Under the pieces are notes generated by a model, which saw only the letters and a program-made list of their open reading frames with translations, had not been told where the DNA came from and ran no database searches. A stretch of 64,000 bases of DNA from Deroplatys truncata (taxonomy: Eukaryota; Arthropoda; Insecta; Mantodea; Mantidae). This document shows, piece by piece, positions 1,390-58,259 of the stretch. The stretch covers positions 666,450,618 to 666,514,617 of the forward strand of contig CM060990.1 of NCBI GenBank assembly GCA_030765065.1, in the 5' to 3' direction. The position numbers were made by a program, and so were the translations under genes. Every line of letters begins with the position of its first letter. The first letter of the stretch is position 1.

Positions 1390-3385
1390 AAGGTAAGGTT
1401 AGAAGATACACTCTTGAACCTGAGCCCTTTGAATATTTTGATAAAGGGGGAGGCCAAAATGGCTTTGCACAGACGGCAATAAACCAGAACAACTAAGGTA
1501 CCTAGGACTGTATCCGGAATCTTGGCTAAAACAAAGGAGGTAGTAGATTCGATTTTCAGACTCAGGGACGGGTTCCTGGGTGTTTGGTTTAAGACCCAGG
1601 TGCAGCTTTATTAATACGCTGGACCTGGTAACCACGGTATTTCAAACTGAAGTATTTGCCATGCCCATGTTGAAGTAGGTTATTTTGTTTACGTAATTTA
1701 TTGGCCTCACGCTTGGGAAGCCAACTTGAAGTAGATATGTTCTATTGTTGAAGTTTGCACCACACTTTGGGCGTTAATTTGAAGAACATTGTTTGTTACG
1801 TAATATCTTACTACGTATGAAAAGCCGATTTGAAGATGTATTTTTGTTGTTACTCTCCAAGTTTTAAAAAAATGTTACTTAACTTTGTTATTAAACTGCT
1901 TCTATAGATAGTATTTATGTTTATGTTTGCCTCGGCTGCTTCAGTATTGTTTTAGAGACACGTTTCTCTTAATTAGGGCGTGGTACGACAAGAATGTAGG
2001 CTTACACAGATTTTAAGTTTAAATTCACTTCTTTTTATTAATCCTTGACACAAATTAAATAGCACTACACTGATATTAAGAGCTGTGAGATTCTTTAATT
2101 TAAAACTTGCACTTTGTTAACGCGTATACTTATTTTACGATTCACACTAATACGTAATATTTCTTTAGAGAACACATCTTCCATCCGGTCATTACCAAGG
2201 TCTGCAGGCAACTAAACATATTTCAACCGTCAAAATCCGTAAGCTTCTGTATTTGAAGTCTCTGGTTGGCTATTTTTAAACTGTCACAAAATTTACATTA
2301 TCGTTGCTCTAATCATGACTAGTAACATTCAAACTCTCAAACTCATTATTGCCTCAAGGTTACCTCATTATTACCTCATTGTTAGCAACGTTAAACTTAT
2401 TATTCTCACAACTCTTACATTATTAAATTAAATGTATTCACATAACATTATTAAACATGTTTACAATAATATAAGCATATGCAATGACTGTTACATACAT
2501 TTTTATAAATTATTACATACATATTGCTTCAAGGCGGGCTGTTATTGAATTTACATATAATATAATTTAATTGAAATTATTCAGGTGTTAAAAATACTGC
2601 CTCAATGTGCAAAAGAAAATCTTAGAAGACAGTATAAAAATAAACAGATCGTTTTATCAGACGGCCAGTTAGCACTAAAAGCTTTAAACAGTCCTTTAGT
2701 ATCATCTAGACCGGCAGGTAAATGTATTACTGCGTTATCCAACCTGGTAGAACATAAACAAGTTTGCTTGTCCTGGGTCCCAGGGCACAAAGGGAATTGA
2801 AGCCAATGAGAAAGCTGACGAACTTGCAAAGCAAGAATCGACACAGCTGAAACCCAAATCAGAGCCACCTCTAGGCACACCTAAGTGTTCCATTACAGAG
2901 GCTGGTGTAAACTGGTGTAAAAAAAACAACTTTCTTTGATCAGGAAGAGATTTTCAGGAATTCGGCATAGGAAATTGTTTATCAAAGAAGCATGCAAACC
3001 TTGAACTCACAGACTGCTTAAATGTAGTAAGTTTCCGTTAAAAACAATAGTAGCCTTTGCCATTGGGCATGCAGCAGTGAGAAAACACCCATACATGGTA
3101 GGAAGGTTTCAGGATAGCACAGACAGTAAATTGTGCGGCTCTGAAACTGAAACAGCCTACCACATATTATGCTCCTGTGAAGGTTTGCATCAAGGAGCTA
3201 CAAAATCTTTGGGAAACTTTTTGTGGAACCAGAGGATTACTACCCAACACACTACTGGGCCTGTGACTGCCAAGGAATACGGGACTAGTGTGAACGGATT
3301 GCAGCCGGAGCTTTTGCAGACGGGCCCAAGTCTTCAAATAAATAAAAAAATAAAGCTTAGAAGATTAAGAAACTGTGCAATTTAG
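1390..3385 (+). pseudogene. Non-LTR retrotransposon ORF2 C-terminal remnant (post-RT linker, RNase H, C-terminal zinc region), split by a solo LTR
   Basis: The 3' part of a LINE ORF2 is recognisable in several + strand frames. At about 1440-1660 I read 'KGEAKMALHRRQ' and then 'FQTEVFA', typical of the linker and of the RNase H start, with E as the likely catalytic glutamate. After the LTR the frame resumes at 2609 with 'CAKENLRRQ', 'IVLSDGQLALKALNS' (catalytic D) and 'SWVPGHKG'. A frameshift near 2797 leads into 'EANEKADELAK'. A third block at 3060-3190 reads 'AIGHAAVRKHPYMVGR' and 'KLCGSETETAYHILCSCEGL', the C-terminal Cys/His region. A tail of 'aaataaataaaaaaataaa' at 3338-3356 resembles the retroposon 3' end. 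Stops and frameshifts make it non-functional. The clade is Jockey- or I-like because RNase H is present, but this is not resolved. Confidence 0.8.
1671..2604 (-). mobile_element. Solo LTR (copy A) inserted in LINE RNase H
   Basis: Read on the minus strand the LTR starts TGAGGCAGTATTTTTAACAC at 2604 and ends CCTACTTCA at 1671. The 4-bp duplication ATGT lies at 1667-1670 and 2605-2608, and the flanking LINE protein continues across it. The LTR carries CCAAT boxes, an AATAAA-type signal and four or five degenerate primer-site modules at 1671-1860 ('ttgaagta' followed by inverted 'gggcg'-type cores). It is 934 bp long with no internal retrotransposon sequence. Confidence 0.9.
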
Positions 3386-3457: not shown

Positions 3458-4478
3458 TGTTTACGTTGAAGTAGACGGTTTGTTACATTATTTGCACCAC
3501 GTTTGGGCGCCAATTTGAAGTAGCTAGTTACTGCTACGTATTGAAGGAGTTGTATTATAGTTCAACTGTTGGGGAGCCGAACACTTGAAGTAGTTGCAAG
3601 CGCACGTATAGTAAACAGTTTCCGGTAGCCTTCGCCCCAAATGTACTTTCAAGTGGCCTTTGCCCCAAGTTTAAAAAAATATTAACTTTGTAATTTAACT
3701 GTTTCTTTAAATATTATATTTATGTTTGCCTCGGCTGCGTCAGTATTATTGTTTTAGAGACATGGATGTCTTAGCAGGGTTGTGGTACGACAAGAATGTA
3801 GCTTACAAAGATTATAATTTTACTTCACTCCTTTTATTACTGCTTGACACGATTTAGATAACACTTCACTGATATAGAGAACTGTGAGATTCTTTATTTA
3901 ATTAATTGCATTTTTTTAACACGTAAACTTATTTTTCGTCTCACACGAATACAATTAAATCTCTCGAGGACGCACAAGCAACGCATCCAGTTATGAGCAC
4001 TGTCTGCAGGCAACACGCCTGGTTATTAGCACTGAATTGATTTCAACCGTCTAAACTTGTAAATTTCTGTATTTCAAGTCTCTGATTGGCTAATCCTACT
4101 CCAATAGAAAACCTTCATTTAACTAAAACTTTTTTCTGGTTGTTGTTTGGCTATTTTTAAACTGTCTCAATATTTACATTTTTGCTGCTCTAATAATGAC
4201 TAGTAGCATTTAAACTTCCTTACTCATTATTGCCTCAAGGTTGCCTCATTGTTAGCAACTTTTAACTTATTATTCTCACAGCTCCTACATTATTAAATTA
4301 CGTAATACATTCACATAACATTATTACACATAGACACAATAATATAAGCATATGCAATGACTGTTGCATACATTTTACAAATTATTACATACATATATTG
4401 CTTCAAGGCGGGCTGTTATTGAATTTATGTTTTATATAATTTCACTGAAATTATTTAAGTGTTAAAAATACTGTCTCA
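3458..4478 (-). mobile_element. Solo LTR (copy B)
   Basis: The target duplication TCGT is at 3454-3457 and 4479-4482. On the minus strand the LTR begins TGAGACAGTATTTTTAACAC and ends ACGTAAACA, still TG...CA, but at a different point of the primer-site module from the CTACTTCA end of other copies. Tandem modules 'gggcgccaatttgaagtag', 'ggggagccgaacacttgaag' and 'cggtagccttcgcccc' occupy 3480-3670. It shares orientation with copy A, but their target duplications differ, so they are independent insertions and not the two LTRs of one element. Confidence 0.9.
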
Positions 4479-4485
4479 TCGTCAC

Positions 4486-4884
4486 TCTTGGCTGGTAGCT
4501 TTGCTAGCCACGAGTGGTGGGAGATAGTGTCTCTCTCAGGTTTCCGTGAGGAACGGATCGCGCGTGTAAGCCGGGCTTTGGATCAGTGGACATCTCCTCC
4601 CACCTTCCATTTTTAATAATGTAGAAACCCCAAATGGTTGGGAAATAAATCTAGGAATGTGTGAGTAGATATGCGTTATGGATTTTGTACAGTAAAAAAC
4701 CCACGCCTTCCTCTTAACCTCCACACCACGTTTCGGTCCTCCGCAGCCAAGTGAGTATACGTCCCCTCAATGTGCGTGCTGGGTATTAGAAATTAATTTT
4801 AATTTTTATGTGAACTTTTAGGCCATCTACCCAGGATGTAACAATACTAAACACTTTGCGTGAAATAGATGTATTTTCGCGGGC
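4486..4884. other. Unassigned sequence
   Basis: I see no coding region or repeat family shared with the rest of the window. The segment 4500-4620 is relatively GC-rich but has no supported function. Confidence 0.5.
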
Positions 4885-5236
4885 TGAGGTAGTGTATTTT
4901 CACTTTATCTACCACATATATGGTAGGTAGAGAAGGTATTGCAAATTAAATATCGATATTTCACAGGAAATACATGCTTTGAAGCCCTTGAATAAAAAAG
5001 GCATTTTTGGAAAAATGTCCTATGTGTATGTGCTCCTGGAAACAGTATTACTCAAAAACAAAATCTCGGAGAAATAGTAAACTTGGTGTTTAGGTTCAGT
5101 ACCTTCCAAAGGTGCGACACAAAGATTTTCAAGAAAATCCTCCCAACCCGAACTAGCCTCTGCGTGGAACATATTTCGAATCTTTTTATTTTCTGAAAAA
5201 AACGGCCTTAACAATAATTTTGATTAAAATACTATA
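4885..5236 (-). repeat. Rep-A, first part
   Basis: The terminal stretch 'ctttatctaccacatata' and 'ggaaatacatgcttt' match other Rep-A termini, for example 41,797-41,880, in the same minus orientation. It is interrupted by a Rep-B palindrome from 5237 and resumes at 5868. Confidence 0.75.
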
Positions 5237-5867
5237 CAGGTTGGACCATTTAAGCGGAGACTGTACAGTATCTCCAAAACTAAGCGTTGTAGAAAGAAAT
5301 GTCCTGAATAAAAGTTGCTTAATATTATAGGGGAAAGTAAATGCCATTAGTCGTGTTTTGTTTCGAGGATGTTATGGTGGTCATTTTAGGCTCAATTTAA
5401 AGTTTTTAAATGGGAACCTACCTTTTTATGTTGTTTTCTCACTCCTCTTAAAAAACTCCAAATTTGTATAAAGCACTTTGCAATTGTTCTTAACCAACGT
5501 AAATAACGTGTATACGAAAAGCGCAATGAATGGTTGAACCATCCAAGGATGGTTATTTGAGTGTCATGTTACGTTTCTAATTGGGAATCAACATTTTTTT
5601 ATTTTGTTTCCTTATTTCTCATCATAAAATAAACAGATTTTTATAAACCATTTTATAATGAGAAAACAACATACAAAATGTAGGTTTCAATTTTAAAAAA
5701 TTAAATTGGCCCTAAATTGACCATCACAACGTCCTCCAAATAAAACAAAACTAATGGCATTTACTTTTCCCTATAATATGAAGCAACTTTTATTAAAGAC
5801 ATTTCTTTCTACAACGCTTAGTTTTGGAGATACTGTACAGTCTCAGCTACTTAAATCGTCCACCCTA
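5237..5867. mobile_element. Rep-B palindromic MITE with TA target duplication
   Basis: The element is nearly a full inverted repeat. The left arm starts CAGGTTGGACCATTTAAG and runs through 'tactaagcgttgtagaaag'-type sequence to 'ggtcattttaggctcaat'. The right arm repeats it in reverse, ending 'ttaaatcgtccaccctata'. TA flanks both ends. A central loop of about 200 bp separates the arms. There is no ORF. The structure fits a Tc1/mariner-type MITE, though no transposase for it is present here. It sits inside Rep-A. Confidence 0.8.
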
Positions 5868-6345
5868 TATACTAAAGACATTTACATGACATAATGTACT
5901 TCTTGAATTTTCTGGGAATAGCTGTGAAGCCCTTTTCATTTGGGAGAAAATCGATATAATCTTGCATAACTGGTAAACTTAAGCAATCAACGAAGATGTA
6001 CTCTACAACAAATGTAGATCTCTTTAAAGTACACCATTTATTTCGAATAACTTGCCATTTCTGAGATATCTATTATTAATTGTTGTGATTGTTCATTACT
6101 TAGCCATTCTTTTGAAGTCCTGTCGATTTTCAGCTGTTTCTCGCAATGTCATAGAAAGACTATGGAATTTTTAAGGCTAGCATACAGCGTCCAGCGTTAT
6201 TCCCTTTGTGTCTATAAGAAAGTGTGTAATTCAGCTATTTCCGAAAACGCTTGTCTCGATTAAGGTGAAGTAGATAGGAAAATAAACTTTCATAAGAAGA
6301 ATTTGTATACCTACTAATAAGTAACAGGATGTCATGTGACTGTAA
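5868..6345 (-). repeat. Rep-A, second part
   Basis: This continues Rep-A beyond the Rep-B insertion, with 'ttgaattttctgggaatag', 'cataactggtaaac' and 'ctgtttctcgcaatgtca' matching 48,440-48,700. The distal end 'atgtcatgtgactgtaatac' matches 48,895-48,920. Confidence 0.75.
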
Positions 6346-6860
6346 TACATAAAATTTTAAACCTTAAGTGACGCGTATCGTGTTAACCTGGAGTGGATAA
6401 AAGTTAAGCCTTTTATATGAAGAAGTATTCTTAATGGGTACTCGCCCGAATGAACCTGTGCTTAGGGTTCTTTAACCCATACTAATGCACTGTGTACTTT
6501 GATTTCCCTCTTAGTTAACTATGTTACACTGTAGTTTCATGTATCTGTTGCACACAAAGCGCGGGTTACCACTAATAAACTAGCCTCAAAGGCAAGTCTG
6601 ACCCTGATAGTTGCTTTATGTTAGAGATACTATAGATTCAGAGAACTGTATGTCATTTTCATGCGATGGTATACAACGTAACTTCAGGGTTACCCATTGA
6701 CTTGAGTCTTGTTATGTTGCCACGTATGTGCGTATGTTCTCTGTACTATGTAGTGCTTTGAATAGGGAATCCCTTGTTATGGGGACAGTCTGCTAAAAGC
6801 TAATGATGGGAAACTAAATGGCGAAAATTTAAAAAAATGATATTTTTTGTGTAATAAATT
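6346..6860. other. Unassigned AT-rich sequence
   Basis: No ORF, RNA or shared repeat is recognised. Confidence 0.5.
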
Positions 6861-6861
6861 G

Positions 6862-7005
6862 TAAAAAGTAAAGATAAAGGTAAGGACGAACGTCCCCTTG
6901 TACTTTTACCCCGGGATGAAGGAATGAGAGGAGAGATCCAAGGGCGACCAGAACCGGATGATGACGGGCGCAAGCACAGACGGGGTCCCTAACGTTTCCA
7001 GATTG
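6862..7005 (-). mobile_element. SINE2 3' fragment
   Basis: Read on the minus strand, 'ctggaaacgttagggac' and 'tctgtg' parallel the SINE2 body at 22,790-22,830. The tail contains pentamer-like 'aaaggtaagg' on the plus strand, as in other SINE2 3' ends. The tRNA-like head is missing and SINE1 follows at once. Confidence 0.5.
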
Positions 7006-7252
7006 AAGGCCTCCAACGCCACCCGAGCATTCGGGGTCGCGGGTTCAAACCCGGCGGGGGTCGATGATATTTTTCGGCGTAAAAATCCTTAACATGGCTT
7101 CCTTCGGAAGGGAAGTAAAGCCGGTGTTCCCTGTCGTAAGATTTGCGGCACGTAAAAGAACCTCAAGTCTGATAACGAGTCTCTTAGTAAAATTTACGGT
7201 CTTTCACGCCCAATATAGAATGAGACCTTAAAAACTATTTTAATCGAGATAA
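7006..7252 (+). mobile_element. SINE1 copy a (tRNA-derived)
   Basis: The B box region 'gcgggttcaaacccggcg' is intact at 7039-7056, followed by the SINE1 body 'cttcggaagggaagtaaagc', 'cacgtaaaagaacctcaag' and 'tttcacgcccaatatagaat'. The A-box side is diverged. The 3' tail 'ataaataa' type is lost. Confidence 0.75.
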
Positions 7253-7254
7253 CC

Positions 7255-7386
7255 CTTTTCGAAAATAATTGCAATAAACATTTCGTTATAGATACAAAGG
7301 GAACAACGATAGTCAATGTTTGAAAACTGGACGCTATATGCTGGCCTTAAAATTCCATGTTTCCATGCAATCGCGAGAAACAACTG
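7255..7386 (+). repeat. Rep-A, part left of the SINE1/LINE insertion
   Basis: The stretch 'actggacgctatatgctggc' to 'tcgcgagaaacaactg' matches the minus strand of 48,670-48,760. The last 12 bases GAGAAACAACTG (7375-7386) are repeated at 9250-9261, where Rep-A continues, so 7387-9249 was inserted here. Confidence 0.8.
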
Positions 7387-12108: not shown

Positions 12109-13056
12109 TGAGGCAGTATTTTTAACACTTACATAATTTCAGTCTAATTATATAATATGTAAATTCAATAACAGCCCGCCTTGAAGCAGTATGTGTATGT
12201 AATAATTTGTAAAATGTATGTAACAGTCATTGCATATGCTTATATTATTGTATCCATGTGTAATAATGTTATGTGAATATATTACGTGATTTAATAATGT
12301 AGAAGCTGTGAGAATAATAAGTTAAAAGTTGCTAACAATGAGGTAACAATGACATAACCTTGAGTCAATTATGAGTAAGAAAGTTTAACAGTACTACTTG
12401 TGATTCTTGGAAGCAATAATGTAATTTTAGTGAGAGTTTATAAAATAGCCAATCAACAACCAGAAAAAGCTTTAGTTAAATGGAGTTATTCTATTGGAGT
12501 AGGATTAGCAAAATTTACAAATCTAGAAGTCAGTTGCCTGCAGACAGCGTTACCAACCAGAATCAAAAAGTGTCCTCAAGAAATATAACATGTATTCGTG
12601 CGAGACGAAAAATAGTTTTACGTGTTAAAAAGTGTAATTAATTCATAAAAGAATCTCACAGCTCTCTATATCAGTGAAGTGTTACTTAAATCGTATCAAG
12701 AATTAATAAAAGGAGTGAAGTAAAATAATAGTCCGTGTAAGCCTACATTCTCGTCGCATCACGCCCTGCTAGGAGAAACGTGTATCTAACAATAATACTG
12801 TCGCAGCCGAGGGAAACATAAATATTAAATATTTAAAGAAACAGTTGAATTACAAAGTTAATATTTTTTTAAACTTGGGGCAAAGGCCACCTGAAAATAC
12901 ATTTGGGCCTACCGGGAACTGTTTACTATACTTGCGGTTGCAACAAATTTCAAGTTCGGCTCCTCAACAGTTGAACTATAATTTGAAAAATACTCCTTTC
13001 TTCAAATTGACGCCCAAAGCGTGTTGCAAACCAGTTACAACAAAATATCTACTTCA
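12109..13056 (+). mobile_element. Solo LTR (copy D), reference copy
   Basis: The ends are TGAGGCAGTATTTTTAACAC and ATCTACTTCA, with target duplication AACT at 12,105-12,108 and 13,057-13,060. Inside are inverted and direct CCAAT boxes (about 12,450 and 12,490), a CATAAAAG motif near 12,645, AATAAA at 12,705-12,710, and the 'cgcagccgagg' stretch. The tail 12,865-13,056 is a row of diverged modules: 'cttggggcaaaggccacc', 'tttgggcctaccggg', 'ttcaagttcggctcctcaac', 'ttcaaattgacgcccaaagc'. Length is 948 bp and no internal region is attached. Confidence 0.92.
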
Positions 13057-18449: not shown

Positions 18450-19868
18450 CACAAGGTGGACCATTTAAGTTGAGACTGTACAATATCTCCAAAACTAAGC
18501 GTTGTAGAAAGAAATGTCTTGGATAAAAGCTGCTTGATATTATGGGGGAAAGTAAATTCCATTAATGGTGTTTTGTTTCGAGGACTTATATAGTCATTTT
18601 AGGGTCAATTTAATTTTTTAAATAGGAATCTACAATTAGGGTTAATTTAAATTGACCCTAAGATGACCATCACAACATCCTCTAAATAAAACACGACTAA
18701 TGTGAAGAAAGGTTTTTTTGTCTTTACGTTGGAGTTGTTTATTTATTTAGCTCCACGTATGGACGCCAATTTGAAGAAGGTGGTTTTCTTTTACGTTGTC
18801 TGCAACATGCTTTGGGCGTCAATTTAAAGTAGGTTGTATTGAAGGAGTTGTATTATAGTTCAACTGTTGAGGAGCCGAATTTAAAACTCGTTGCAACCGC
18901 AAGTATAGTACCCGCTTTCCGGTAGCCTTCGGCCCAAATGTACTTTCAGGTGGCCTTTGCCCCAAGTTTAAAAAAATATTAACTTTGTAATTTAAACTGT
19001 TTCTTTAGATATTATATTTATGTTTGCCTCGGCTGCGTCAGTATTATTGTTAGAGACATGGAAGTCTTGGCAGGGCGTGATGCGACAAGAATGTAGGCGT
19101 ACGCAGATTTTAAGCTTTAATTCACTCCTTTTTATTAATCCTTGACACAAATTAAATAGCACTTCACTGATATAGAGAGCTGTGAGATTCTTTTTTTATT
19201 AATTAATTAATTACACTTTTTACCACGTAAAACTATTTTTCGTCTCACACGAATACATATTAAATCTCTCGAGGACGCATCTTGCATCCGGTTACTATCA
19301 CTGTCTGTAGGCAACTGACTTCTAGATTTGTAAATTTTGCTATCTTTCAGTTTCTGATTGGCTAATCCTACTCCAATAGAATACCTTCATTTAACTAAAG
19401 CTTTTCTGGTTGTTGATTGGCTATTTTTAAACTGTCTCAAAATTAACATTATTGCTGCTCTAATAATGACTAGTAGCATTTAAACTTCCTTACTCATTAT
19501 TGCCTCAAGGTTACCTCATTGTTATCTCATTGTTAGCAACTTTTAACTTATTATTCTCACAGCTCCTACATTATTAAATTACGTAATATATTCACGTAAC
19601 ATTATTGAACATGTTTACAATAATATAAGCATATGCAATGATTGTTACATACATTTTACGAATTATAACATACACATTGCTTCAAGGCGGGTTGTTATTG
19701 AATTTACATATTATATAATTTGACTGAAATCATTTATGTGTTAAAAATACTGCCTCAAATGGCATTTACTTTCCCCCAAAATATTAAGCAACTTATATTC
19801 AAGGTATTTCTTTCTACAACGCTTATGTTAGGAGATATTGTATAGTCTCAATTTAAATGATCCACTTG
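18450..19868. mobile_element. Rep-B palindromic MITE split by LTR copy E
   Basis: The left arm (18,450-18,702) starts 'cacaaggtggaccatttaag' after TA, and includes 'tccaaaactaagcgttgtag'. The remainder of the right arm (19,758-19,868) reads 'tttctttctacaacgcttat' and ends 'gatccacttg' before TA. The central loop and right arm were interrupted by the LTR at AATG. Confidence 0.85.
18703..19757 (-). mobile_element. Solo LTR (copy E) inside Rep-B
   Basis: On the minus strand it begins TGAGGCAGTATTTTTAACAC at 19,757 and ends CCTTTCTTCACA at 18,703. The duplication AATG is at 18,699-18,702 and 19,758-19,761. Primer-site modules fill 18,750-18,970: 'tggacgccaatttgaag', 'tgggcgtcaatttaaagtag', 'gaggagccgaatttaaaac', 'cggtagccttcggcccaaa'. 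Length is 1,055 bp. Confidence 0.9.
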
Positions 19869-27358: not shown

Positions 27359-28402
27359 TGAGGTAGTATTTTTAACACTTGAATAATTTCAATTAAATTA
27401 TATAATATATAAATTCAATAACAGCCCGCCTTGAAGCAATATGTATGTAATAATTTGTAAAAATGTATGTAACAGTCATTGCATATGATTATACGTATTA
27501 TTGTAAACATGTTTAATAATGTTATGTGAATGCATTGGGTAATTTAATAATGTAAGAGCTTTGAAAATAATAAGTTTTAAGTTACTAATCATGAGGAAAC
27601 AATGAAGTAACCTTGAGGCAATAATGAGTTTGAGAGTTTAAATGTTACTAGTCATGATTAGAGCAACGATAATGTAAATTTTGTGACAGTTTAAAATTAG
27701 CCAATCAACAGCCAGAAAAAGCTTTAATTAAATGCAGGTATTCTATTGGACTAGGATTAGCCAATCAGAGACTTGAAATACAGAAGCTTACGGGTTTTGA
27801 CGGTTGAAATATTTTCAGTTGCCTGCAGACCTTGGTAGTGACTGGATGGAAGATGTGTTCTCTAAAGAAATAATACGTATTCGTGTGAATTGTAAATTAA
27901 GTATATGCGTTAACAAAGTGCAAGTTTTGAATTAAAGAATCTCACAGCTCTTAATATCAGTGTAGTGCTATTTAATTTGTGTCAAGGATTAATAAAAAGA
28001 AATGAATTTAAACTTAAAATCTGTGTAAGCCTACATTCATGTCGCACCACGCCCTGATTAAGAGAAACGTGTCTCTAAAGTAAGACTGACGCAGCCGAGG
28101 CAAACATAAACATAAATACTATCTATAGAAGCAGTTTAATAACAAAGTTAAAATATATTTTTTAAACTTGGAGTGTAACAACAAAAATACATCTTCAAAT
28201 CAGTTTCTCATACGTAGTAACTATTACGTAATCAGCAACTTCAAATTAATGCCCAAAGCGTGATGCAAAAACTCCAACAACAGTAAACCCTTCAACATCA
28301 ATAAACTACAACAGTCGAAAAACAGTACTACTTCAAGTTGGCTTCCCAAGCGTGAGGCTAATAACTTACGTAACAGGAAATTACGTAAACAAAACACCTT
28401 CA
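27359..28402 (+). mobile_element. Solo LTR (copy G)
   Basis: It starts TGAGGTAGTATTTTTAACAC and ends AACACCTTCA, with the duplication TAAT at 27,355-27,358 and 28,403-28,406. The module region 28,165-28,402 has 'cttcaaattaatgcccaaag', 'cttcaagttggcttcccaag' and 'aacgtg'-like parts. It is closest to copy A in sequence (both with 'ttggcttcccaagcgtgagg'), which hints at a shared sublineage. Confidence 0.92.
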
Positions 28403-51791: not shown

Positions 51792-53047
51792 CGAGGGTTG
51801 TTCAATGAATACCAAGACTGATATTTATATATCGCGGGAACGTGATCAATCTGCTATCTATAGGAAATATCTATACTAGTACGTACCCTTAATTGTTGCT
51901 ATTAGCTACATTTTACTGAGCCAAACTTTTCTCCAACAATAGCAGTTTTAAGTTGGTAAGGAGTGAAGGCGCCTGTAAACTGCAAAATTTCTGAAATCAG
52001 AGAAGAACGTAATGCCATAAAGTTTTTTGTTTTGTTAAACAAAGTGCTACAGAAACGTTTGAAGATAGTCGTTGAGCCTATGGTAAGTCGACAGTGTCTC
52101 GTGCTGTATGTTTCTGTTGGTATAAGGCATTTAAAATGGAAGGGAAGGTTGTGAGCTGGAAGGAGGAGAGGAAGCCTCCACCGCCACCCTTGCAGAGGTC
52201 ACAATCAACACTGCTGCCATTATCGTGTAACGGTTAGGGAACTTGCAAATATGCTAGACATATCGGTGGGAAGCACTTGCACAATTTTAAGGGTTCACTT
52301 AAACACGTCAAGTATATGTGCTCGCTGGATTCAAAGTGCTAACTCCCGTTCAGAAGCAGATTCGAGTTGGTGTGTGCAAGCAATTAAAACAGTGTTTCCA
52401 AGAAGAAGGGGATGATTGGTGGAAAAACATTATCACTGCCGATGAATCATGAGTGTATGTACTGCTATGACCCAGAGACGAGGAGACAGAGCACAGAGTG
52501 GGTTGAAAAGGGGCAAACACATTCCAAAAAAACGCTCGTCCACAAATCAGCAAAGGCATTAGTGATCACAGTATACTCACATCAAGTTTCCAGAGGTCAG
52601 ACAGTCACTGTAGACTATTATCGTAGTGTTCCTAAAGATCACTCCCATAAAACGGAGAGATCTGGTTGGCAAGTGGAAGCTTCAGCACGACAGTGCTTGT
52701 CCTCGCGTAGCGACAGCTGTTACAACGTTTCTGTCCAAGAAAGGCATCTCCGCGGTTCTCCACTTACCCTATAGTCCAGATCTGGCACCGCGTGACTTTT
52801 TTGTTTCCAGTTGCCAAAAATATCTCAAAGGACGACGGTTTGACTCCGAGAATGAAGCAGTGAAGGCGTTAGAAGGGATTTTGAAGCGCTAATCAAAAAT
52901 GGATTTGAGGACGTCTTCCGAAAGCAGATGAGAAGGCGTATTGCACTTAATGGAGACTACATTGAAGGAGAAAAAATTGATTTTGATTGAATTCTTGATA
53001 ATAAAGTTTTTATAGCATCAGTCTCTGTCTTTATTGAACATACTAAG
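51792..53047 (+). mobile_element. Mariner-like element 3
   Basis: The left end 'cgagggttgttcaatgaata' matches the inverted right end 'cttagtatgttcaataaaga' in the 'tgttcaat' core and in 'gactgat' further in. TA target duplications are at 51,790-51,791 and 53,048-53,049. Length is 1,256 bp. Confidence 0.85.
51963..52990 (+). pseudogene. Mariner transposase pseudogene (element 3), DD34D
   Basis: N-terminal remnants 'EERNAIKFFVLLNKV' lie at 52,000. 'PVQKQIRVGVCKQL' (52,345) begins the linker, and 'IITADES' at 52,428 has the first catalytic Asp followed by a stop. 'YDPETRRQSTEWVEKG' continues. After a frameshift, 'LQHDSACPRVATA' has the second Asp and 'LPYSPDLAPRDFF' the third, 34 residues later. 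The C terminus is frameshifted after 'VKALEGILKR'. It is inactive. Confidence 0.9.
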
Positions 53048-53467: not shown

Positions 53468-54496
53468 TTGTTGTATTGTTATTTTGCCCCACGTTGGGCG
53501 CCAATTTGCTTCACGTATGGAAAGCCGATTTGAAGTAGGAGTTGTATTGTAGTTCAACTGTTGGAGAGCCGAAATTGAAGTAGTTGCAACCGCACGTATG
53601 GTAAAAAGTTTCCGGTAACCTTCGCGCCAAATGTACTTTTCGGTGGCCTTTGCCCCCCAAAAAGTTTTAAAAAATATTAACTTTGTAATTTTTACTGTTT
53701 CTTTAAATATTATATATTTATGTTTGCATAGGCTGCGTCAGTATTTATATTTTTTTGAGACATGAATGTCTTAGCAGTGAGTGATGCGACTGAACAATGT
53801 AGGCTTACACGGATTATAATTTTACTTCACTACATTTATTAATGCTTGACACGATTTAAATAACACTTCACTGATATAGGGAGCTGTGAGATTCTTTTAT
53901 TAATTACTTGCACTTTTTAACACGTAAACTATTTTCGTCTCACACGAATACGTATTAAATTTCTCGAGGACGCATCTCGCGTCCGGTTAGGAACACTGTC
54001 TCCAAGCAACGCGTCCAGTTATGAGCGCTGTCTACAAGCAACTGACTTTATTTCTACCGCCTAAATTTGTAAATTTCTGTATTTCAAGTCTCTGATTGGC
54101 TAATCCTATTCCAATAGAATACCTTCATTTAACTAAAGCTTTTTCTGGTTGTTGATTGGCTATTTTATAAACTGTCAGAAAAATTACATTATTGCTTCCA
54201 AAAATTACAAGTAGTGTTGTTAAACTTTTAAAATCATTATTGCCTCAAGGTTACCTCATTGTTATCTCATTGTTAGCAAATTTAAACCTATTATTCTCAC
54301 AGCTCTACATTACTAAATTACGTAATACATTCACATAACATTATTACACATGTATACAGTAATATAAACATATACAATGACTTACATACATTTTACTAAT
54401 TATTACATACACATGTTGGTTTAAGGCGGGCTGTTATTATATTTATATATTATATAATTAGACTGAAATCATTTAAATGTTAAAAATACTACCTCA
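53468..54496 (-). mobile_element. LTR copy H with an exact tRNA-Lys primer-site module
   Basis: On the minus strand it starts TGAGGTAGTATTTTTAACAT at 54,496. The modules occupy 53,480-53,680. The 3' boundary is uncertain: the expected duplicate of AGAT (54,497-54,500) is not found on the left, so the left end is approximate. It lies directly 3' of the LINE remnant. Confidence 0.8.
53486..53503 (-). other. Exact 18-nt tRNA-Lys(CUU)-type primer-binding sequence
   Basis: The minus strand reads TGGCGCCCAACGTGGGGC, which I recognise as the complement of the 3' end of insect tRNA-Lys(CUU), including CCA. It is preceded by 'aagcaaat'. It is the least mutated of the modules in the window and reveals what they derive from. 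Confidence 0.8.
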
Positions 54497-57249: not shown

Positions 57250-58259
57250 TAAGGCAGTATTTTTAACATTTAAATGATTTCAGTCAAATTATATAATATG
57301 TAAATTCAATAACAGCCCGGCTTGAAGCAAAATGTGTATGTAATAATTTGTAAAATGTATGTAACAGTCATTGCATATGCTTATATTATTGTAAACATGT
57401 TGAATAGTGTTATGTGAATGCATTACGTAATTTAATAATGTAGGAGCTGTGAGAAATAGGTTAAAACTTGCTAACCGTGAGGTAACAATGAGGTAACCAT
57501 GAGGCAATAATGAGTTTAAGATTTAAATGTTACTTGTGATTCTTGGAAGCATTAATGTAATTTTAATGACAGTTTATAAAAATAGCCAATCAACAACCAA
57601 AAAAAGCTTTAGTTAAATGTAGGTATTCTATTGGAGTAAAAATAGCCAATCAGAGACTTGAAATACAGAAATTTATAAGTTTAGACGGTTGAAATCAATT
57701 CAGTTGCCTCCAAACAGTGCTCATAACCAGACGTGTTGCTTCTAGACAGTGATCATAACCAGAAGCGAGATGTGTCCTCGAGAAATTAATTACGTATACG
57801 CGTGAGACGAAAATAGTATACTTGTTAAAAAGTGCAAGTAAAAGAATCTCACAGCTCTCGATATTAGTGAAGCGCTATTTAATTTGTGTCAAGGATTAAT
57901 AAAAAGGAGTGAATTAAAGCTTAAAATCTGTGTAAGCCTACATTCCTGTCGCATCACGCCCTGCAGGGACTTCCATGTCTCTAACAATAATATTGACGCA
58001 GCCGAGGCAAACATAAATATTTAATGCTTAAAGAAACAATAAAACTACAAAGTTAATTTTTTTTAAACTCTGGGCAAACGCCACCTGAAAGTACATTTGG
58101 GGCGAAGGCTACCGGAAACTGTTTACTATACGTGCGGTTGCAACTACTACAAGTTCGGCTACCTAACAGTTGAAATATAACAAAACTCTTTCAATACAAA
58201 CTACTTCAAATTGACGCCCAAAGCGTTGTGCAAACAACGTAAAGACAATATCTACTTCA
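57250..58259 (+). mobile_element. Solo LTR (copy I)
   Basis: The duplication AAAC is at 57,246-57,249 and 58,260-58,263. The start is TAAGGCAGTATTTTTAACAT (TG mutated to TA) and the end is ATCTACTTCA. The module row 58,065-58,259 includes 'ttggggcgaaggctaccgg', 'ctacaagttcggctaccta' and 'cttcaaattgacgcccaaag'. Length is 1,010 bp. Confidence 0.92.

Follow-up and report, generated by a model that had tools for sequence, protein, structure and literature searches.

A long terminal repeat (LTR) is usually taken to have its fixed origin at the border between U5 and the primer-binding site (PBS), and elements of the Ty3/Gypsy type as a rule have only one PBS and an LTR 3' end that does not vary. 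The locus studied here, an LTR copy on the minus strand at 53468..54496 of the window (i.e. the whole 64-kb stretch of mantid DNA that was analysed), raises the question of how PBS-like sequences can come to lie within an LTR and where such an LTR ends. Its exact 18-nt PBS, TGGCGCCCAACGTGGGGC, is located on the minus strand at 53486..53503, is preceded by GCA-AAT and is complementary to tRNA-Lys(CTT). The 19-mer TTGGCGCCCAACGTGGGGC, which includes this PBS (53486-53504, minus strand), lies inside the focal LTR or abuts it and is the sole match in the window at up to three mismatches, with 0 matches in 100 shuffles. The 5' end of the focal LTR at 54496 (TGAGGTAG) is sound; the 3' end near 53468 is unproven, no target site duplication (TSD) having been found, as the 4 bases flanking its 5' end, ATCT, reappear only at +1241, where the sequence is unrelated. 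The exact PBS may be an internal module, or it may belong to the junction of a 5' LTR that has degraded. Two more modules of the focal copy differ from the PBS by 7 edits, which by itself does not exceed chance (about 6 chance matches per 15 regions occur already at 6 edits). The sequence adjoining the focal LTR (window 52500-53000) is degraded and, judged by eye, resembles the 3' part of a Tc1/mariner transposase.

LTR copies in the window and the family to which they belong

The focal LTR has eight relatives within the 64-kb window. Seven LTR starts in the window were mapped against the full-length element L009, to which these diverged copies are 67-75% identical; an eighth start that was tried, 24186, is not at the start of an LTR. 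In five of the seven LTRs the 4 bases preceding the LTR are repeated directly behind a terminal CTTCA, which itself is situated past a PBS-like module. On the plus strand, solo LTRs are located at 27359..28402 (ending with ACCTTCA, TSD TAAT, PBS-like modules at 28250 with 6 edits and 28339 with 4 edits), at 12109..13056 (ending with CTACTTCA, TSD AACT, module at 13008 with 5 edits) and at 57250..58259 (ending with CTACTTCA, TSD AAAC, module at 58212 with 5 edits). The minus strand carries solo LTRs at 1671..2604 (ending with CTACTTCA, TSD ACAT, modules at 1776 with 5 edits and 1723 with 4 edits) and at 18703..19757 (ending with TTCTTCA, TSD CATT, modules at 18821 with 6 edits and 18768 with 3 edits). 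A further LTR copy on the minus strand, 3458..4478, has a module at 3512 (2 edits) and ends either with CTACTTCA, which is followed by ACGT (flank ACGA), or about 10 bases later, after ...GTAAACA, where the exact ACGA follows. The search for TSDs in the window also yielded other coincidences of CA plus a 4-mer at shifted starts, i.e. each case taken singly carries less weight than all of them together. Since the TSD follows a CTTCA end situated beyond the modules, the modules are inside the LTR in these solo LTRs. The preliminary description of this DNA had located the modules within the LTR in general, which is confirmed by the TSDs of the five solo LTRs and does not extend to the focal copy with its missing TSD.

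In the host genome of the window (4.29 Gb) TTGGCGCCCAACGTGGGGC has 4,866 exact copies (0 for the reversed control), and the junction between the polypurine tract (PPT) and the 3' LTR has 9,746 exact matches (2 for the reversed control). From places with an exact PBS 20 stretches of about 10 kb were fetched and LTR pairs were taken from 15 of them; the interior is roughly 2.2-2.5 kb long in many, i.e. short, copies among these 15 loci. The LTRs have the form TGA...CA, and equal 4-bp target duplications are clean in 10 of the 14 full-length pairs tested, a set that left out L021; L009 is ambiguous, and in L012, L017 and L022 no TSD was found. At the two junctions of the element, CA, 3 nt and the PBS follow each other after the 5' LTR, and AGTGGGGCATA is followed by the TGA of the 3' LTR. 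Element L010 has uninterrupted ORFs of 727 aa at the gag position and of 1,120 aa for pol. The pol ORF (4001-7363) contains, in this order, the Pfam domains RVT_1, RT_RNaseH_2, RT_RNaseH, Integrase_H2C2 and rve, its N-terminus matches an aspartyl protease below the cut-off (20.9 of 26 bits), and its best match in the PDB is Ty3 (7q5b, E 2.5e-79). The domain order was examined in full in L010 and in the reverse transcriptase (RT) and integrase parts of a second element, L009. In L010, the sole element checked for an envelope gene, no ORF of at least 120 aa is present between pol and the 3' LTR.

Taken together, the order of the pol domains, the TG...CA ends, the 4-bp TSDs, the PBS and the PPT assign the LTRs to a very abundant Ty3/Gypsy (Metaviridae) retrotransposon. 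Instead of the single PBS and the fixed LTR 3' end that are usual in this group, arrays of PBS modules and shifted boundaries are found; these are a variant within Ty3/Gypsy and no ground for excluding the element from the family. At C6:92186984-92196712 four matches follow each other at 3.1-kb steps, as if elements had been fused head to tail via shared LTRs, and in L039 the internal sequence continues after the second LTR.

The primer tRNA and the anatomy of the module array

Over its 18 nt the PBS is exactly complementary to the 3' end (last 18 nt with CCA) of tRNA-Lys(CTT) from the same genome. True genes for this tRNA are found at C9:191136600, and the members of the tRNA-Lys(CTT) gene cluster end with GTTCGAGCCCCACGTTGGGCG. 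This cluster (L031, C9:191136600-191138400) is a tandem tRNA cluster with a period of 144 bp, its 12 genes comprising nine for tRNA-Lys(CTT), one for tRNA-Lys(TTT) and two for tRNA-Asn, and the exact Lys 3' end is repeated along at least 41 kb there. L029, L030 and L032 also match the 3' end of the tRNA and were considered as tRNA genes, yet they are copies of the element, the PBS being matched for 24 nt. In the leaders of L029 and L030 the PBS matches tRNA-Lys over these 24 nt, i.e. past the 18-nt PBS; retroviral copying of the tRNA usually stops at 18 nt. The 5' ends of L029 and L030 resemble the LTR subfamily of the window.

The preliminary description had left it to full-length elements to reveal the position of the PBS relative to the LTR end. 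In these copies the basic plan is normal, i.e. the LTR ends with CA located 3 nt before the PBS and thus, as usual, right before a PBS. Additional modules of the same build are present upstream within U5 and often downstream in the leader. Around the 15 full-length junctions 55 modules are found at up to 4 edits as compared to 0 in 20 first-order Markov shuffles per region. All 48 named loci gave an array (12 of these arrays consist of a single module), and in 117 of the 132 modules of the 48 arrays CA is located at exactly -5/-4 from the PBS, i.e. 3 nt before it, whereas any other offset from -2 to -14 accounts for at most 21. Moreover, 79 of the 84 spacers between modules end with the same layout of CA and 3 nt. 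The conserved spacing of CA argues that each module is built as an LTR end plus a PBS, so that the initial reading of the modules as units of an LTR end and a tRNA-Lys PBS, the latter complementary to tRNA-Lys(CTT), holds.

The frequency of the modules was determined in two samples. Among 13 resolved elements selected for an exact PBS (L009 and L021 were left out of this count as ambiguous), a module is found within the LTR in 11 and downstream of the junction in 10. Among 13 resolved elements taken in the order of the PPT list, a module (up to 5 edits) is located within the LTR in 11 and downstream of the junction in 5. The latter sample is based on the first listed places, with 20 elements fetched as two short pieces each, ten of which were resolved: L042, L044, L048, L056, L060 and L062 have no LTR pair in the fetched stretches, and L052, L054, L074 and L080 were dropped for unlike 5' and 3' arrays or an unresolved end. 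It was completed by L013, L026 and L027 (two PPTs), which come from the same stretch of the list and had earlier been chosen for an exact PBS; the junction PBS is exact in all three. As modules downstream of the junction are missing from 8 of these 13 elements, the use of inner modules may be a minority choice. The claim that every young LTR copy carries modules is too strong, the copies in the window being diverged (67-75% identity to L009) and a module being present within the LTR in 11, not all, of the 13 resolved elements elsewhere.

Shifted LTR boundaries and shuffled cassettes

Colinear relatives were found by a genome search with the array of L013. L010, L013, L083, L085 and L087 have four homologous modules in common, which are colinear and 80-87% identical. 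The first module after the LTR end is the second of the array in L085, the third in L013 and the fourth in L010, L083 and L087. The boundaries of L010 (TTAC) and L013 (ATAT) are verified by TSDs, and the LTR pairs are 99.5% identical in both elements; the boundaries within L083-L096 rest on where the 5' and 3' copies part rather than on TSDs. The 3' LTR stretches contain one module in L086, L089 and L090 and three in L084 and L088, in agreement with the shifted boundaries. Judging from these sequences, the LTR of this family seems to have no single fixed 3' end. Different boundaries on homologous arrays fit the use of alternative priming sites better than an extension in one direction.

The arrays themselves are variable. 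Distinctive spacer cassettes between the PBS modules occupy different array positions in different elements; as single-linkage clustering of A+T-rich spacers may chain, only long distinctive cassettes were relied on. Five relatives of L078 are 95-97% identical to it up to the first L078 PBS and resume just before the third, the modules in between being absent, which may reflect either a gain in L078 or a loss in its five relatives. In L012 two modules recur as a pair, the spacers of the repeats being identical or nearly so, i.e. a tandem amplification, and in L080/L081/L097 (C1:18250612-18255020) a unit of PBS and spacer recurs at 71-bp steps, with 8 modules in the 5' array as compared to at least 11 in the 3' copy, the end of which was not reached.

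Variation also affects the very ends of the LTRs. Some LTR copies are 99-100% identical over about 248 bp and then clearly differ in their last 13-19 bases, all ending with CA. The variable ends of L079, L091, L093, L095 and L096 fall into four clear kinds, L079 and L095 having the last 12 bases in common. The variable termini of L078/L079, L091, L093, L095 and L096 branch right after TTACGTAA(A/G)CA, a near-palindrome that is repeated in many spacers and is possibly a preferred switching point. Additionally, the two LTRs of one element may differ: 5' and 3' LTRs agree up to the array and diverge from there on in L009, L037, L052, L054, L074 and, if these are one element, L094/L095, and they differ in the last few bases in L085/86 and L087/88. 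Recombination between inserted copies could be an alternative source of the unlike ends in all these cases.

A proposed choice among priming sites and competing explanations

The observations comprise the arrays and their geometry, several boundaries on homologous arrays, the shuffling of cassettes and the differences between 5' and 3' LTR ends. As their cause we infer, from inserted DNA only, a choice of the priming site combined with strand transfer: several of the tandem PBS modules can probably prime, the primed module would set the LTR end, and strand transfer would shuffle the array. In this scheme the genomic RNA would start in R and would carry near its 5' end tandem cassettes, each consisting of an LTR-type end (CA), 3 nt, the tRNA-Lys(CUU) PBS and a spacer. 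tRNA-Lys would anneal at one of several modules, minus-strand strong-stop DNA would begin there, and the first bases of this DNA would define where the new LTR ends on its 3' side. All modules that precede the primed one would thus become part of U5, and those that follow it would stay in the leader. Since the RNA would begin in R and always contain the whole array, the choice of the module would be made anew at each insertion and not be inherited. Cassettes may be added, removed and shuffled when strand transfer or template switching takes place from one module to another or from one RNA to a co-packaged RNA whose array differs. Finally, if the strong-stop DNA and the remaining DNA derived from different RNAs, or if pairing occurred at another module, the two LTRs of an element might differ.

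An unlikely alternative to priming at several modules is that the arrays are plain tandem repeats of U5 (VNTR), in which the extra modules have no role in priming, and that the differences arose by later unequal or ectopic recombination between inserted LTRs. Amplification of the kind seen in L080/L081/L097 with its 71-bp steps and in L012 is repeat-like, head-to-tail elements of the order LTR-internal-LTR exist (C6:92186984-92196712; L039), and the 5' and 3' LTR arrays are unlike in several elements. Tandem-repeat change and recombination indeed explain array length and some of the unlike LTR ends. However, a merely passive repeat has no need for a distance of exactly 3 nt between CA and the PBS, as found in 117/132 modules, and later recombination makes no new TSD-flanked LTR end, whereas L010 and L013, each with LTR pairs of 99.5% identity, have TSD-flanked junctions at different homologous modules.

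The exactness of the PBS bears on both the choice of the priming site and the origin of the modules. In a set of 19 junctions, made up of the 13 PPT elements and six relatives of L013, the PBS is exact in 7 as compared to 2 of 32 other modules (Fisher p 0.009). Such an excess is expected if the junction PBSs are the sites used. It mostly stems from three close relatives, L036, L040 and L041, which are those with an exact junction among the six resolved relatives of L013, all six chosen by similarity of the array or leader (within L034-L041, L034, L035 and L038 have no full 3' LTR end, and the ends of L037 and L039 are unlike). In the PPT sample alone 4/13 junctions and 2/20 other modules are exact (p 0.18, not significant), and at the newly fetched PPT places 1/10 and 1/12, respectively. 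The view that the junction PBS is always an exact copy of the tRNA was suggested by 11/13 junctions of the first sample, but these loci had been picked for an exact PBS, and the wider count is 7/19. As 12/19 junction PBSs are imperfect, the pairing need not be perfect.

These numbers also speak to the second alternative, in which PBS renewal of the retroviral type would be the main driver and the modules would be a record of past priming, decaying once unused. This process is compatible with priming at several modules as an addition to it; as the main driver it is very unlikely. It would agree with the excess of exact junction PBSs and with the finding that, for 100 exact places among the matches listed, 13 of 86 groups contain two or three exact PBSs in a span of 300 bp. 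Against it stand, besides the 12/19 inexact junction PBSs and the selection of loci behind the 11/13, the bulged PBS variant CAAATTGGCACCCAGAACGTGGGGC, which has 3,271 exact copies in the genome (control 0) and is the junction PBS in five elements (L050, L064, L070, L072 and L076), and the precedent of Ty3, whose PBS, according to the part of the source available, is not renewed from the tRNA and whose plus-strand transfer is believed to rely on R/U5 (PMC5371799). This route, as the available part describes it, fits the many imperfect junction PBSs found here, which are expected if the PBS is largely inherited from the RNA as in Ty3. Routine renewal of the PBS from the tRNA thus finds no support in the junctions counted, and some renewal may occur.

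A one-way growth of U5 in which DNA synthesis runs past the PBS or the tRNA primer is not fully removed, PBS copies being added either way, would agree with the PBS copies within U5, the varying LTR lengths and the 24-nt tRNA match in some leaders (L029, L030), which goes beyond the usual stop at 18 nt, but it is highly improbable, as the spacers between modules are cassettes of the element and not tRNA sequence, modules also occur downstream of the junction, and homologous arrays have both earlier and later boundaries. From the extension of U5 that the preliminary description had put forward there remains that U5 can differ between homologous elements by entire modules, being longer in one of them; the downstream modules and the shifting boundary speak against growth in one direction. 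Slippage or transfer between modules, which it had also considered, is supported by the changes in the arrays.

Going further than priming at several modules, we lean, if only slightly, towards a lineage without a fixed LTR 3' end, in which each integration would pick one cassette and the array would be shuffled at the PBS during strand transfer, redundancy and imperfect PBSs perhaps being selected as back-up priming sites or as decoys against 3' fragments of tRNA-Lys. The available part of the work on mouse elements reports that 3' tRNA fragments of 17-19 nt block priming, that those of 22 nt silence elements through the PBS and that successful mouse elements have imperfect PBSs (PMC7472051). 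In IAP, ETn and MusD elements common mismatch and indel variants of the PBS still prime, and an escape from silencing by 3' tRNA fragments has been argued in the same part of that source (PMC7472051). We hypothesize that, by analogy, the many imperfect PBSs of the mantid element could act as back-up sites or decoys; the mouse system differs in that the part of the source available describes variants of single PBSs and no arrays (PMC7472051).

Ty3 from Saccharomyces, the closest relative with a solved structure, resembles the mantid element in its pol with RT, RNase H and integrase in this order. The priming sites differ: the Ty3 PBS, as given in the available part of the source, is bipartite and pairs with tRNA-iMet, one segment being located at the 5' end and the second about 4.8 kb away in U3 (PMC5371799), whereas the mantid element has tandem PBS cassettes in U5 and the leader, tRNA-Lys as putative primer and a variable LTR end. 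Sireviruses (Ty1/copia) with multiple PPTs are alike in having clustered copies of a primer site for reverse transcription near an LTR junction. In the part of the source available, however, these are sites of the plus-strand primer, present as identical copies in the linker, and the LTR junctions are highly conserved (PMC2829016), whereas in the mantid element the minus-strand primer site is repeated, also inside the LTR, and the LTR end is variable. No description of a family with multiple, tandem or duplicated PBSs was found in the open-licence literature, which does not establish its absence from print.

With thousands of copies and an apparently varying LTR origin, the family lets one read from inserted DNA which primer site is chosen, how the PBS is inherited and what route plus-strand transfer takes. 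It may also serve as a concrete test case for whether an element gains protection against inhibitory tRNA fragments from duplicated, imperfect primer sites. Moreover, annotation that assumes one PBS directly after the LTR could misplace the LTR ends in this family.
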